In this document: positions 4,118 to 12,873 of the stretch, one piece after another | How positions within the stretch are numbered: the stretch's first letter is position 1 | Layout: each line of letters begins with the position of its first letter | Source of the DNA: Candidatus Peregrinibacteria bacterium RIFOXYB2_FULL_32_7 | GTDB taxonomy: Bacteria > Patescibacteriota > Gracilibacteria > UBA1369 > GWF2-33-10 | Assembly: GCA_001787465.1 (NCBI GenBank) | Contig: MFXJ01000005.1 | Coordinates: forward strand, 1-12,873 | Reading direction: 5' to 3' | DNA: 12,873 nt | Notes under the pieces: model-generated | Seen by the model: only the letters and a program-made list of their open reading frames with translations | Databases searched by the model: none | Told to the model about the DNA's origin: nothing | Translations under genes and position numbers: made by a program

Positions 4118-4153
4118 CATCTGATGGCATTTTTATTTCTTAAAATTTTTTAT

Positions 4154-5134
4154 ATGTCACAAATTGACAAACTTCCACTAACCCAAAATCGTACTTCATC
4201 TTCACAAGAACGAAATTTACAAAAAGGAATAAAAGTAGCGCTAAACGAATCTCAATCTCTAGAAAAAAAAGAGTTTAATGAAAAATTAAAGCAAAAGATA
4301 GAAGCTCTTAAGGAAATTAGAAAGAGCCAAAAAGAAATGGAAAATGAAATAGAAACAGCGTCAAAAAATAAAAATCTAAGCAAAGAAGAATTAAGAAAAC
4401 TGCAAGAAAAAGAATTAAAACTGTCGGAACAATTTAATAAAAAATATTGGGAAACATCTGTATCTGATTCAAAAGAATTTGCTCGTTTACACAATATTTT
4501 AGATACAAAGATTACAAAGCCAAAAAATTTAGATGGTCTTATTATAAATTTAAAACAACTTGCCAAAGAAGAAACTGACAAAAGTGCAAAAAAAGATTTC
4601 GCATTATTAATAGATTATCTACAAATAGTTTCAGAAGCAGGATTGCAAGATGATATTTCTGGACACTCAATAGATGATTTAGGAATAAAGTGGCGGAAAA
4701 ATTTATTAGAGACAAATGAATCCTGGCAATTTTGCAAACATAATTATGAATTATATAAAAAGCAATGTTCAGATAACAAAACTCCAGGAAATCAAACAGA
4801 AACTGATTCCGTACTTACTGCATATAATAGATTATTTACAAAATTCGAAGAAATATTCCAAGAATCAGTTGTTTTGCATCATAGCCAAGATAAAAAAGCT
4901 GTCGTAGGAATTGTAAGTAAATATAAGGAACTTTTAAAAGAAGAATCTAATATATATAAAAAATTTGAATCAGAAGATACTTGGAAGAGGAATGAGTTAC
5001 TTGATCCCCAAACATGGACTGGCGAAATATTTACACAATTTGCTCCATTTAGACAGTCTGATCTTTTCCATCAATTTCAAAAAGAAAAAGGTGAAACGAA
5101 TTTAGAAGACTTTATAAATTGGTTAGAAAAATAG
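4154..5134 (+). CDS. Hypothetical coiled-coil protein
   Basis: I do not recognise this 326-residue protein. Residues 35-95 are rich in K, E, L and Q with heptad spacing and predict a long coiled coil (KLKQKIEALKEIRKSQKEM and following). The rest is mixed helical, with no cysteine cluster, no nucleotide-binding motif and no membrane segment. An upstream in-frame ATG at 4124 would add MAFLFLKIFY, but it coincides with the predicted transcription start. I therefore place the start at 4154 (MSQIDKLP). The gene stands alone between the ftsH divergent promoter and the transposase region. Coding is strongly lysine- and AAA-biased like its neighbours, so there is no sign of recent transfer. A structural or scaffold role is possible but not supported by any specific feature. 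Confidence 0.7.
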   Translation: MSQIDKLPLTQNRTSSSQERNLQKGIKVALNESQSLEKKEFNEKLKQKIEALKEIRKSQKEMENEIETASKNKNLSKEELRKLQEKELKLSEQFNKKYWETSVSDSKEFARLHNILDTKITKPKNLDGLIINLKQLAKEETDKSAKKDFALLIDYLQIVSEAGLQDDISGHSIDDLGIKWRKNLLETNESWQFCKHNYELYKKQCSDNKTPGNQTETDSVLTAYNRLFTKFEEIFQESVVLHHSQDKKAVVGIVSKYKELLKEESNIYKKFESEDTWKRNELLDPQTWTGEIFTQFAPFRQSDLFHQFQKEKGETNLEDFINWLEK

Positions 5135-5349: not shown

Positions 5350-5730
5350 ATGCATCTAAATCAATTTGGACAAATAATCCAAAAAGAATGGGAAAATACT
5401 CCAAATATAAGAAAAGAAATAATTTTAGACGAATTTATAATCATGCCAGATCATATTCATGGAATAATAAAAATAAATAATAATAGTACGGGCGTATGGC
5501 AATACGCAACGGAATACGCCCCAACATTTTTTAAATCCACATCAAAAACCTTAGGGGCATTTATCAGAGGATTTAAAGGAACAACTACTAAACAAATCAA
5601 TTTAATTAGAAACACTCCAAATTTTCCTTTATGGCAAAGAAATTATTATGAAAGAATAATCAGAAATGAAAATGCCTTAAATAATATTCGCAATTATATC
5701 AAAAATAATCCAAAAAATTGGGGAAAATGA
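5350..5730 (+). CDS. REP-associated tyrosine (Y1/HUH) transposase, N-terminally incomplete
   Basis: The product is the larger part of a Y1 single-strand transposase of the REP-associated (RAYT) branch of the IS200/IS605 superfamily, which cuts DNA next to hairpins through a phosphotyrosine. The 126 residues from the first ATG include the HUH metal motif H35-I-H37 in IMPDHIHGIIKI and the catalytic tyrosine region WQRNYYERIIRN (Y99 or Y100). The usual C-terminal helix NNIRNYIKNNPKNW closes it. The family's first strand and PNRQSIRLKG motif are encoded directly upstream at 5233-5349 but without a normal start codon, so the full protein of about 166 residues may no longer be made. A variable segment (GVWQYATEYAPT) contains a DNA hairpin. 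It is convergent with tilS, with a gap of 16 bp. Family call is firm; activity is doubtful. Confidence 0.8.
   Translation: MHLNQFGQIIQKEWENTPNIRKEIILDEFIIMPDHIHGIIKINNNSTGVWQYATEYAPTFFKSTSKTLGAFIRGFKGTTTKQINLIRNTPNFPLWQRNYYERIIRNENALNNIRNYIKNNPKNWGK
5490..5521 (+). repeat. GC-rich alternative hairpin inside the transposase gene
   Basis: GGGCGTAT (5490-5497) pairs perfectly with ATACGCCC (5514-5521). GCGTAT (5492-5497) also pairs with a nearer ATACGC (5502-5507) around a GGCA tetraloop, because AATACGC occurs twice, 12 bases apart. The two hairpins exclude each other. The sequence is markedly richer in G and C than its surroundings and encodes the variable WQYATEYAP segment. Confidence 0.55.
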
Positions 5731-10096: not shown

Positions 10097-10732
10097 TCAT
10101 CCAAATAATTTCTGATACAAAATCCCCCCATATCGCTTCAAAAATTCTCGATAGCTTTTTTGAAAACCAATAATTTTCCGCTCCAGATCCAAAACATCAT
10201 TAAGACTTATATCATTAATCATCCTAATCAAACTCAACGCTCCAGAAAAAACATTTGTTCCTTTTAAAGGGATTAAACGTGCAAATAAAAAATTGCCTTT
10301 TTCAAATAAATAACTGCCTTTTACTTCAGAAATAAAAAAAATTTCCTCAGTAAAAATATCTTTTACTTCAAATCCAAAATCTCTTTTTATGTCTAAAACC
10401 TCAAAACAAGACCGATAACTTTTTTGAATACCAATCAAATATGCAAGTTCTCCCTGCGTTAAATGATCTTCATGCTCTAAAATATAAGTTTCCACCACCG
10501 TTTTACCGTCAAAAATAGGTATATCATACCAAAGCCATTCCCAAAAAAATTCTTCTTGATCATCACTTAAATATTCATCATCCATTTGCAATTCAGAAAC
10601 ACCGAAAAATTCGTCCAAATATTCATCTAAATCAATATCATCAGTAATAGGATAAGCAAAATCAGCGATTTTATTAATCAGCATATTATACGCAGAGATC
10701 GTATCGGCTGGGAATAAATTTTGCGAATTCAT
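10097..10732 (-). CDS. Hypothetical acidic protein
   Basis: I do not recognise a named family for these 211 residues. Residues 29-62 are very acidic (for example DDIDLDEYLDEFFG), followed by an aromatic stretch FFWEWLWYDIP (62-72). A region from about 90 to 165 runs LTQGELAYLIGIQKS, FEVLDI, EVKDIFTEE, GNFLFARLIPLKG. Its pattern of a helix, 'EVLDI', 'VKDIFT' and 'ARLIPL' recalls an unnamed domain seen beside SEC-C motifs in many bacterial hypothetical proteins, but the cysteine-rich SEC-C itself is absent. That resemblance is from memory and weak. There is no signal peptide or membrane segment. It is transcribed toward the pilus operon and divergently from the methyltransferase gene. The sequence does not show a function. 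Confidence 0.75.
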   Translation of the reverse strand: MNSQNLFPADTISAYNMLINKIADFAYPITDDIDLDEYLDEFFGVSELQMDDEYLSDDQEEFFWEWLWYDIPIFDGKTVVETYILEHEDHLTQGELAYLIGIQKSYRSCFEVLDIKRDFGFEVKDIFTEEIFFISEVKGSYLFEKGNFLFARLIPLKGTNVFSGALSLIRMINDISLNDVLDLERKIIGFQKSYREFLKRYGGILYQKLFG

Positions 10733-11478: not shown

Positions 11479-12342
11479 ATGGATTCTGATATTTTAAATA
11501 CCAATCTTTTAGAAGATGAAACCTTTATACAAGATTTAATAAGAGCATATGAACTAAAATTTCAAAGATTAATTGAAATAGAAACAAAAGCATTTAATTG
11601 TAGATTAGATATATCTAAAAATACGCTTAACATAGAAAAAACCATAAGAGAAGCTTTAAAAATTGTCGCCTTAATGCAAGTACAATCCGAAGAAGATACT
11701 ATATTACAAATAAAGGCTTTTTTAAGAATTATTAATGATCAAATCCAAAGAATCATTTTTCGCTATCATAGTCAAGTTGGCGATAAAATGACTACATTGC
11801 AACACCTATCTATCACAGATCCTCTCACTAAAATATTAAATAGGAATGGATTAATGAGAGTTTTGAGAAATAAACTTGTAATACATGAAAATGGAAAAAG
11901 AGAAAAAAAAGAAACAGAACGCTCTATTTGTATAATTATGATCGACATTGATCATTTTAAAAATATAAATGATACACATGGCCATTTAGCCGGTGATTAC
12001 ATCTTAGAACAATTAGCTAGAATTTTAGAAGAAAGATTTAGAATAGGAGTTGATGCGATTGGAAGATTTGGCGGAGAAGAATTTATGATTGTATTCGAAG
12101 GTAACAAAGAAGATGCCGAAACAGCAACGGAACGTTTTCGTAAAACCATCGAAGATCATACTTTTTTATATAAAAATCCTAAAAATGAAATAATTTCTAT
12201 AAGAATTACTGTGAGTATTGGTATTAGCGATAATAAAAATTCTGTAGATCCTAATATTATAATCGAAACTAGTGATCAAGCCTTATATACATCAAAAGAA
12301 AATGGCAGGAATCAAATCACTTACCGAGCAACTCAAAATTAA
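11479..12342 (+). CDS. GGDEF diguanylate cyclase
   Basis: The C-terminal half is a GGDEF domain, which joins two GTP into the second messenger cyclic di-GMP. The first catalytic block MIDIDHFKNINDTHGHLAGD is at 154-173 with metal ligand D156, and the active-site GGEEF is at 198-202. The closing SDQALYTSKENGRNQI is at 265-280. The active site therefore looks intact. The product-inhibition site RxxD, normally ending six residues before the GG pair, reads IGVD here, with the arginine one place too early (R188), so feedback inhibition may be lost. Residues 1-105 are helical, without a recognisable sensor domain, membrane segment or phosphoacceptor, and probably dimerise the protein. No EAL or HD-GYP phosphodiesterase or PilZ receptor is in the window. 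The nearby pilus operon is a plausible but unproven target of the signal. Confidence 0.92.
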   Translation: MDSDILNTNLLEDETFIQDLIRAYELKFQRLIEIETKAFNCRLDISKNTLNIEKTIREALKIVALMQVQSEEDTILQIKAFLRIINDQIQRIIFRYHSQVGDKMTTLQHLSITDPLTKILNRNGLMRVLRNKLVIHENGKREKKETERSICIIMIDIDHFKNINDTHGHLAGDYILEQLARILEERFRIGVDAIGRFGGEEFMIVFEGNKEDAETATERFRKTIEDHTFLYKNPKNEIISIRITVSIGISDNKNSVDPNIIIETSDQALYTSKENGRNQITYRATQN

Positions 12343-12379
12343 ATTTCCATATTTCTTTCTTTTTGTCTATATATAAAAT

Positions 12380-12408
12380 TTGACGTTCTTTAAACGTTTT
12401 GATAAATT
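12380..12408 (+). promoter_or_regulatory. Promoter-like element reading into the large inverted repeat
   Basis: TTGACG (12380-12385), a 17-bp spacer and TAAATT (12403-12408), preceded by TG at 12400-12401 (extended -10), predict a start near 12415. Between the boxes ACGTT (12383-12387) and AACGT (12393-12397) form a small palindrome followed by TTTT. It could be an operator, or a weak terminator for the GGDEF gene. No credible coding region lies downstream, so any transcript would be non-coding. Confidence 0.5.
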
Positions 12409-12478
12409 AATATGAACAGATCGAGAAAGATTAAAAAAAATATAAAAACAAAAAAGTTCTTTTACATTTTCGTTTCTG

Positions 12479-12658
12479 CAAAGCACAAAAGCAATAGGGT
12501 TCTTCTCTTAAAAAAAACAAGAATCTTCTCTCCCGATAAACACAAAAATGGAGATCGTTGCGGTAAGCTCGTGGGCTTACTCACATCTCTTAAAACTTTT
12601 CTTTTTGAGGGAAGTCTCTTAATCCGAGAAAAAAGGACTCTATTGCTTTTCTGCTTTG
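12479..12658 (+). repeat. Large imperfect inverted repeat; candidate structured RNA or MITE
   Basis: The outer arms 12479-12504 and 12633-12658 match as inverse complements at 23 of 26 positions, centred on AAAAGCAATAG / CTATTGCTTTT. Further in, GAGAT (12551-12555) pairs with ATCTC (12585-12589), and GTAAGC (12563-12568) with GCTTAC (12575-12580) around a six-base loop. Between these stems the sides (12505-12550 and 12590-12632) pair poorly. Weaker similarity continues outward (TTCTTTT at about 12457-12463 and its complement near 12670), so the whole element may span about 12455-12690. A closing stem, a large central bubble and an apical hairpin resemble the general shape of 6S RNA, but no sequence match is claimed. 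No flanking target duplication was recognised. Confidence 0.65.
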
Positions 12659-12700
12659 TGATATGGAAAAAGAAGTGACGATCTTTTTCCCACACAAAAC

Positions 12701-12776
12701 TTGTCTGTTCCATTCCATAAACCTATTTATTTAATTTATGTAGAGTGGATATTCCCAGACAGTCCTTGGACGGACT
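12701..12776 (+). other. Nested hairpin region next to the inverted repeat
   Basis: Three inverse-complement pairs nest in order: TTGTCTG (12701-12707) with CAGACAG (12756-12762), TCCA (12709-12712) with TGGA (12746-12749), and ATAAA (12717-12721) with TTTAT (12735-12739). A separate hairpin AGTCC / GGACT follows (12761-12776), sharing two bases with the first stem. The ordered nesting suggests RNA structure, on either strand. The family is not recognised. Confidence 0.4.
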
Positions 12777-12810
12777 AAAAACCTCATCCAAAACAAGGCA
12801 GAGAAATTAA

Positions 12811-12833
12811 ACAAGAAATCGCGTCATTCTTGT
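12811..12833 (-). terminator. Possible minus-strand terminator hairpin
   Basis: ACAAGAA (12811-12817) and TTCTTGT (12827-12833) form a perfect 7-bp stem with a nine-base loop. Read on the minus strand it is followed by TTTAATTT, a rough U-tract, so it could end a minus-strand gene lying to the right of the window. The stem is AT-rich and the tract is interrupted. Confidence 0.3.
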
Positions 12834-12873
12834 AAAAACAAATATCCAAACAAAAACCTCAGCATATTACAAA

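Follow-up and report, generated by a model that had tools for sequence, protein, structure and literature searches.

A probable undescribed family of large structured RNAs in Peregrinibacteria- and Gracilibacteria-type Patescibacteria

We describe an intergenic locus that, with a probability that we place at roughly 0.75, belongs to a hitherto undescribed family of large, free-standing structured RNAs of Peregrinibacteria/Gracilibacteria-type Patescibacteria that would work in trans. The locus lies at the end of the window, by which we mean the whole 12,873-nt stretch of DNA that was analysed. A first-pass annotation of the window had proposed that this locus encodes a structured RNA, as yet undescribed, under a promoter of its own, and homologous copies, compensatory base changes and the absence of any Rfam match all uphold that proposal. 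It had also placed the end of the element at 12690, a boundary that does not hold because conserved structure runs on to the end of the window at 12873. The long hairpin at the heart of that annotation is one domain, variable in length, of an RNA gene that is larger and reaches beyond the window end. As read from the aligned sequences, the architecture runs from a promoter through a 5' region (with a boxA-like element in part of the copies) and the variable hairpin to a core of hairpin A, helix 2, helix 3 with its pseudoknot, and hairpin B, followed by linkers, a last hairpin and a terminator-like end (Table 1). As an RNA family it is new in the sense that no tested family fits; the broader kind, large structured bacterial RNAs without an assigned function, already exists. 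To our knowledge, bacteria have few conserved RNAs of such size and complexity, and the large bacterial RNAs that are understood are catalysts, scaffolds or regulators. In this order, where genomes measure ~1 Mb, the RNA is matched in 46 of ~88, frequently in two copies and at addresses that recur, which suggests that its job repays the cost.

Table 1. Predicted features of the RNA gene within the window
Feature	Position	Strand	Basis
Putative sigma70-type promoter: -35 TTGACG (12380-12385), 17 nt, -10 TAAATT (12403-12408)	12380..12408	+	letters present; like promoters at other copies
RNA gene, part within window	12414..12873	+	homology to C69:1010-1486, G001, G038 and further copies
boxA-like element GTTCTTTTACAT (NusB-S10 site type of rRNA leaders)	12456..12467	+	matrix from 13 rRNA leaders
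5' arm of long variable hairpin domain (closing stem)	12479..12504	+	repeat search, fold
Apical stem-loop GTAAGC-TCGTGG-GCTTAC (GTAAGC 12563-12568 paired with GCTTAC 12575-12580)	12563..12580	+	fold, comparison with G001
3' arm of variable hairpin domain	12633..12658	+	repeat search; CTGCTTTG end common to C69 and G001
Hairpin A GGAAAAAG/CTTTTTCC (loop contains TGACG 12676-12680, one kissing partner)	12665..12690	+	8/8 pairs changed on both sides, 41 sequences
Helix 2: GTCTG (12703-12707) / CAGAC (12756-12760)	12703..12760	+	84.3% of cells paired; 4/5 pairs changed on both sides
Helix 2 extension TTCCA/TGGA	12708-12712/12746-12749
Helix 3 hairpin AGTCC-TTGGAC-GGACT	12761..12776	+	97.0% of cells paired; 3/4 pairs changed on both sides
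Pseudoknot: loop TTGGA (12766-12770) with TCCAA (12787-12791)	12766..12791	+	third pair formed in 49/59 copies
Hairpin B ACAAGAA/TTCTTGT	12811..12833	+	loop CGTCA (12822-12826) complementary to hairpin A TGACG

Genomes are labelled G### and loci L###; G000 is the genome of the window itself (1.11 Mb in 116 contigs, 74% complete) and C## are contigs, those of G000 unless another genome is named. A DNA search of G000 found two strong copies, that of the window and one on contig C69, which is 72% identical over window positions 12638-12856, and additional copies were found in G001, from the same taxonomic family, and in G038, from another. With a covariance model built from four copies (R1) we searched the order (88 genomes here and 89 in another order search), and R2 and then R3 were built from sequences judged real on reading, with R3 comprising 41 copies and 17 pairs. 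Across the class, R2 matched 31 of 353 genomes at E <= 0.05 and R3 matched 50 of 353 at E <= 0.02, 46 of them within the order of the window and four outside it. Three of these four were read: G335 and G343, from one other order, are real and G296 is not; the fourth is G153 (E 0.02 with R3). Three matches were rejected on reading as resembling coding sequence: G296 (L117), G573 (L118) and L101 (G005:C8). Over 379 genomes drawn from the phylum, R3 matched four members of the order and the coding sequence of G573.

Altogether 66 copies were read in 47 genomes, 19 of which have two (the list was typed by hand); this set takes in G001 and G046, which are absent from the R3 class listing, and leaves out the matches of G067, G079 and G084 and the second match of G076. 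Nearly all relatives that have the RNA hold one or two copies. An exact pattern search of named genomes returned six records, namely Candidatus Peregrinibacteria (three), Candidatus Gracilibacteria (one) and Patescibacteria group bacterium (two), and a pattern search of viral contigs gave no match. BLAST matches in L011, L017, L022 and L023 resemble A-rich leaders, a terminator or unrelated DNA and were set aside; R3 found no match on L010, L013, L015, L016, L017, L022 or L023, and one weak match on L011 (E 0.043). On the minus strand of L015 (G051), near 1320-1390, a stretch cut by Ns resembles the hairpin A region of L073, and it may be a further copy of the RNA, uncounted and unscored by R3.

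The promoter letters reported by the first-pass annotation are indeed present in the window, and the match taken by itself is not above chance: positions 12000-12873 hold two matches of the TTGACG-17-TAAATT type, where shuffled sequence gives a mean of 2.9. What makes the window promoter credible is the company it keeps, because promoters with at least nine of the 12 letters, followed four bases on by TGA as in the window, precede 48 of the 63 copies read (shuffled mean 1.1). The C69 copy has the identical TTGACG-17-TAAATT promoter. Transcription of the window copy would start near 12413-12415. At its other end, the C69 copy closes with an intrinsic terminator, AACACCCGC-GAAA-GCGGGTGTTTTTTTT, and past 12873 the contig of the window shows 42 N and, beyond them, a terminator-like 3' half. 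Terminator-like sequences stand at 55 of the 63 copies, the window copy being one of the eight without, where the gap lies. Between promoter and terminator, both located by script in 42 copies, the RNA measures 349-619 nt (median 410), and the window copy would be ~520 nt long, provided that the gap has its nominal size.

We clustered the neighbours of the copies using up to two genes per side, counting near-duplicates and naming genes by reading their sequences, with no family search, and two recurring addresses emerged. At the first, a divergent gene, candidate for a DnaQ/DinG-type helicase, lies upstream in 18 loci, and a convergent gene, candidate for the carbamoyl-phosphate synthase small chain, lies downstream in 16 (as the nearest gene in 6 and as the second in 10), with a same-strand methyltransferase-like gene intervening in seven of those 16. 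At the second, a convergent candidate mechanosensitive channel gene lies downstream in 20 loci and is the nearest in 19, while the upstream neighbours vary. We read the two copies per genome as paralogues that in many genomes occupy these two addresses. The copies of the window and of C69 fall outside both clusters; directly upstream of the window RNA, in this small Patescibacteria-type genome, is the gene of a GGDEF-domain protein (11479-12342, PF00990, E 1e-33).

A cis-regulatory leader or riboswitch of the adjoining gene would also be structured and intergenic, and the gene after the window copy, which lies past the window at L020:1603-2277, is on the same strand, as are the genes 78-249 nt behind the core match at the seven loci of cluster 8. 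These same-strand downstream genes speak slightly for this reading, which we still consider very improbable: the nearest downstream gene is convergent in 19 of the 20 loci of the largest cluster, the next gene at C69 is likewise on the opposite strand, the neighbours differ between addresses, and terminator-like sequences close most copies. A free-standing RNA is favored because of its promoters, its terminator-like ends and the frequent placement of the next gene on the opposite strand.

The same neighbourhoods bear on whether the locus is a miniature transposable element or some other repeat. The first-pass annotation had reserved that verdict for many copies with target duplications. The inverted repeat and an IS200-like gene in the same window would suit such an element; against these stand the low copy number (two strong copies for G000 and, in nearly all relatives having the RNA, one or two), the recurring gene neighbourhoods, and the covariation of the pseudoknot and kissing loops, and together they leave this explanation practically no chance. 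Elsewhere in the window, positions 5350-5730 match an IS200-like Y1 transposase (PF01797, E 1.2e-6), and the frames at 4124-5134 (336 aa) and 10097-10732 (211 aa) have no Pfam match at E <= 0.001.

The predicted core fold is well supported by covariation. A model-free MAFFT alignment of the first four copies was tested against a structure drawn from these same copies: 95.5% of 44 cells pair, with 59.1% at most in slid controls, and six of 12 pairs are changed on both sides (shuffled mean 2.2). In 41 copies, 90.2% of 640 cells pair versus 74.8% shuffled, 15 of 17 pairs are changed on both sides versus 8.9, and 115 cells are doubly changed versus 35.3, with slid controls paired at 49.2% or less; the kinship of the sequences inflates these and all our other shuffle tests, for the helices, the kissing loops and the pseudoknot alike. 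The 41-copy set consists of 46 sequences minus the near-duplicates L054 and L087, the fragment L019, L073 and the false L101. Its alignment was fitted to a model with helices 1 and 3, and helix 2, although outside that aligning model, nonetheless pairs as often as Table 1 records. Beyond the core come A-rich linkers and a last hairpin, the latter seen by eye and kept outside the counts. The alignment of homologues that the first-pass annotation had recommended has yielded compensatory changes in three helices, in the pseudoknot and in the kissing loops.

Two predicted tertiary contacts tie the core together. In the pseudoknot, the third pair (made by the third base of the helix 3 loop) forms in 49 of 59 copies versus 31.6 (sd 2.5) when shuffled, with none of 5000 shuffles as good; four of 63 copies, in which no partner is recognisable, were left out of this count. 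In the kissing contact, the hairpin A loops of different copies, UGACCA, UGACUA, UAACC, UUACCA and AGACGA, match the hairpin B loops UGGUCA, UAGUCA, GGUUA, UGGUAA and UCGUCU, respectively. Summed over six pairs in 43 copies, the kissing score is 220 versus 203.4 (sd 3.0) with the B loops redealt, and none of 10,000 redeals scored as high. All 43 copies form the three central pairs; the outer pairs are looser and, with G-U counted, form in 30 (first), 37 (fifth) and 28 (sixth) of these copies. This test kept near-duplicates in and L019, L073, L101 and later-found copies out, and three loops misplaced by the script were set by hand. The contact gains further support from a side branch (L125-L134) and from L073, in which, on reading, both partners seem to be jointly absent. 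A permissive pattern count found both partners in 53 copies, neither in five, loop A only in four and hairpin B only in one (Fisher p 1e-4), a count that disagrees with the reading for six of ten side-branch copies.

Covariation between loops looks the same whether the contact is made within one molecule or between two. The RNA might accordingly be imagined as a self-assembling ornate RNA in the style of GOLLD, ROOL or OLE, its kissing loops joining separate molecules; size, A-rich linkers and conserved kissing loops are alike, and PMC12286853 reports intermolecular kissing loops in those RNAs. We consider this unlikely, given that the covariation is blind to the distinction and that Rfam gave no match. 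Somewhat less doubtful, and still speculative, is a pair of large structural RNAs specific to the Peregrinibacteria lineage, expressed like rRNA through boxA antitermination, whose kissing loops would build a defined particle of RNA only or of RNA and protein and possibly join copies of the same RNA or the two paralogues.

The variable hairpin of the window matches its earlier description closely. The closing stem consists of 26-nt arms complementary at 23 positions (88%), with 128 nt between them, and the apical stem-loop with GTAAGC and GCTTAC is found as reported; its loop TCGTGG is retained in G001, although the stem letters differ there. Positions 12410-12700 fold at -79.3 kcal/mol versus -50.7 (sd 4.35) in 200 dinucleotide shuffles, none of which is as good (z -6.6), so that the comparison with shuffled sequences proposed at first pass comes out clearly in its favor. 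Over 12470-12670, the plus strand folds at z -6.3 and the minus strand at -5.2; both fold well, and therefore folding alone does not give the strand. Among the copies, arms equivalent to the closing stem pair above chance in 21 of 63, a moderately positive result of a contiguous-match test, and in C69 the whole domain is, by reading, ~50 nt long.

It was this hairpin, with its closing stem, wide middle and apical stem, that the first-pass annotation had likened to 6S RNA, and a 6S RNA or a 6S-like open-promoter mimic binding sigma70 RNA polymerase would share with our RNA that it is free-standing. The likeness does not extend further. The model RF00013 finds no match here, and G000 has its 6S RNA, above the cut-off, at another place (C13:3190-3358, 50.0 bits versus a cut-off of 46.4); RF00013 matches 44 of 88 genomes of the order at E <= 0.1, 19 of them, G000 included, above the cut-off, and a control search matched five of 14 named genomes. 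The new RNA is also longer (its median length compares with 187 model positions), has a pseudoknot and kissing loops, and carries the resemblance in a domain that is length-variable and short in C69. We regard a 6S identity as highly improbable.

Searches against Rfam 15 over the whole window found no family at its gathering score. Over 12341-12873, at up to E = 5, there were seven matches (idnO, SNORA29 and others), all far below gathering scores and none of them 6S, and over three other loci, at up to E = 1, there were six, likewise far below their gathering scores. RNase P RNA and tmRNA are similar in size, and their folds are pseudoknotted. They differ from the new RNA in having genes of their own: RNase P RNA (RF00010), whose model has no match here, is encoded separately in 19 of 20 genomes, including G000 and not G056, and tmRNA (RF00023), with neither a model nor an ARAGORN match here, has a separate above-cut-off gene in 17 of the 20, with none above the cut-off in G000, G056 or G085. 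GOLLD, ROOL, OLE and raiA, whose models we take to be part of the Rfam library searched, gave nothing at gathering score in the window or the three other loci, and their host group and motif order are unlike those of the new RNA. The likeness to them is that of structured RNAs with tertiary contacts, as PMC11706538 describes for the raiA motif, and, in the other three, of kissing loops (PMC12286853). We found no paper on Peregrinibacteria noncoding RNA or RNA motifs in open-licence full texts, and no title or abstract about this RNA among those listed in a wider literature search; a word search of PMC11109978, on new RNAs from 50 genomes, did not find Patescibacteria, Peregrinibacteria or Gracilibacteria named.

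An RNA that encodes a short peptide, as a messenger or with a dual function, would be suggested by some copies of one paralogue (L035, L040, L047, L058, L061, L064, L066 and others) in which a short open frame comes after ATGATGCC; by eye, such frames run to ~6-25 codons in a number of copies. The start is absent in L059, L060 and L090, however, and L065 stops immediately; copies of the other type have no ATGATGCC start, and an 88-aa frame of the window (12412-12678) spans the very hairpin domain that is short in C69. A coding role strikes us as quite improbable.

The boxA-like element of the window, GTTCTTTTACAT, scores 14.1, the highest value among 25,724 positions when both strands of the window are scanned, and none of 100 shuffles is as good. 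The matrix came from 13 16S leaders of related genomes, picked with a pattern; boxA is present in 13 of the 14 16S leaders printed, that of G000 reading GTTCTTTAACAT, and the 16S leader of G343 has no clear boxA. Against GYTCTTTAANA, given as the gamma-proteobacterial consensus in PMC5725501, eight of 62 copies match exactly (shuffled 0.08), 18 with at most one mismatch (2.5) and 35 with at most two (20.0). With the first boxA matrix, the mean best score over the 62 copies is 5.4 versus 2.2 shuffled, and, taken singly, 26% of the copies are equalled by five or fewer of their 100 shuffles. Control leaders (four 6S loci, one RNase P locus and one tmRNA locus) score up to 6.1, and many single copies are therefore indistinguishable from controls, whose maximum exceeds the mean best score of the copies. 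A boxA is likely present in part of the RNA copies, that of the window included, as an enriched and not a universal element. Of 20 genomes tested, 18 encode NusB, the two in which it was not found being G000, which is 74% complete, and G343. In the 16S leaders L135-L148, a TGTAATAGAGAA-like block common to the clade lies 3' of boxA.

These data suggest how the RNA may work. RNA polymerase would start at the sigma70-type promoter, and, where boxA is present, NusB-S10 would shield the long untranslated transcript from Rho and aid its folding, in both respects as for rRNA. Once folded into a compact tertiary core, the RNA would act in trans, with a structural role or bound to protein. Ribosomal RNA leaders of the same clade and, according to PMC7862264, CRISPR arrays likewise place a boxA soon 3' of the promoter of a long untranslated RNA; the new RNA differs in being neither type of leader and in having boxA in part of its copies only. 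Such a boxA on another untranslated RNA, if true, would extend the range of transcripts known to use antitermination of the rRNA type.

Two minor motifs deserve mention. The stretch CCCTAGAA, mostly CGCCCTAGAAAAGC or CGCCCTAGAAC, is conserved in the 5' domain of one copy type, before or inside the variable hairpin (in L033, L091, L094, L127, L129, L130, L134 and others), and is a possible candidate for a binding site. A-rich stretches like the AAATAAAAACAAAA linkers of the RNA also occur, by eye, directly before start codons in L011 (near 1501) and L017 (near 1501).
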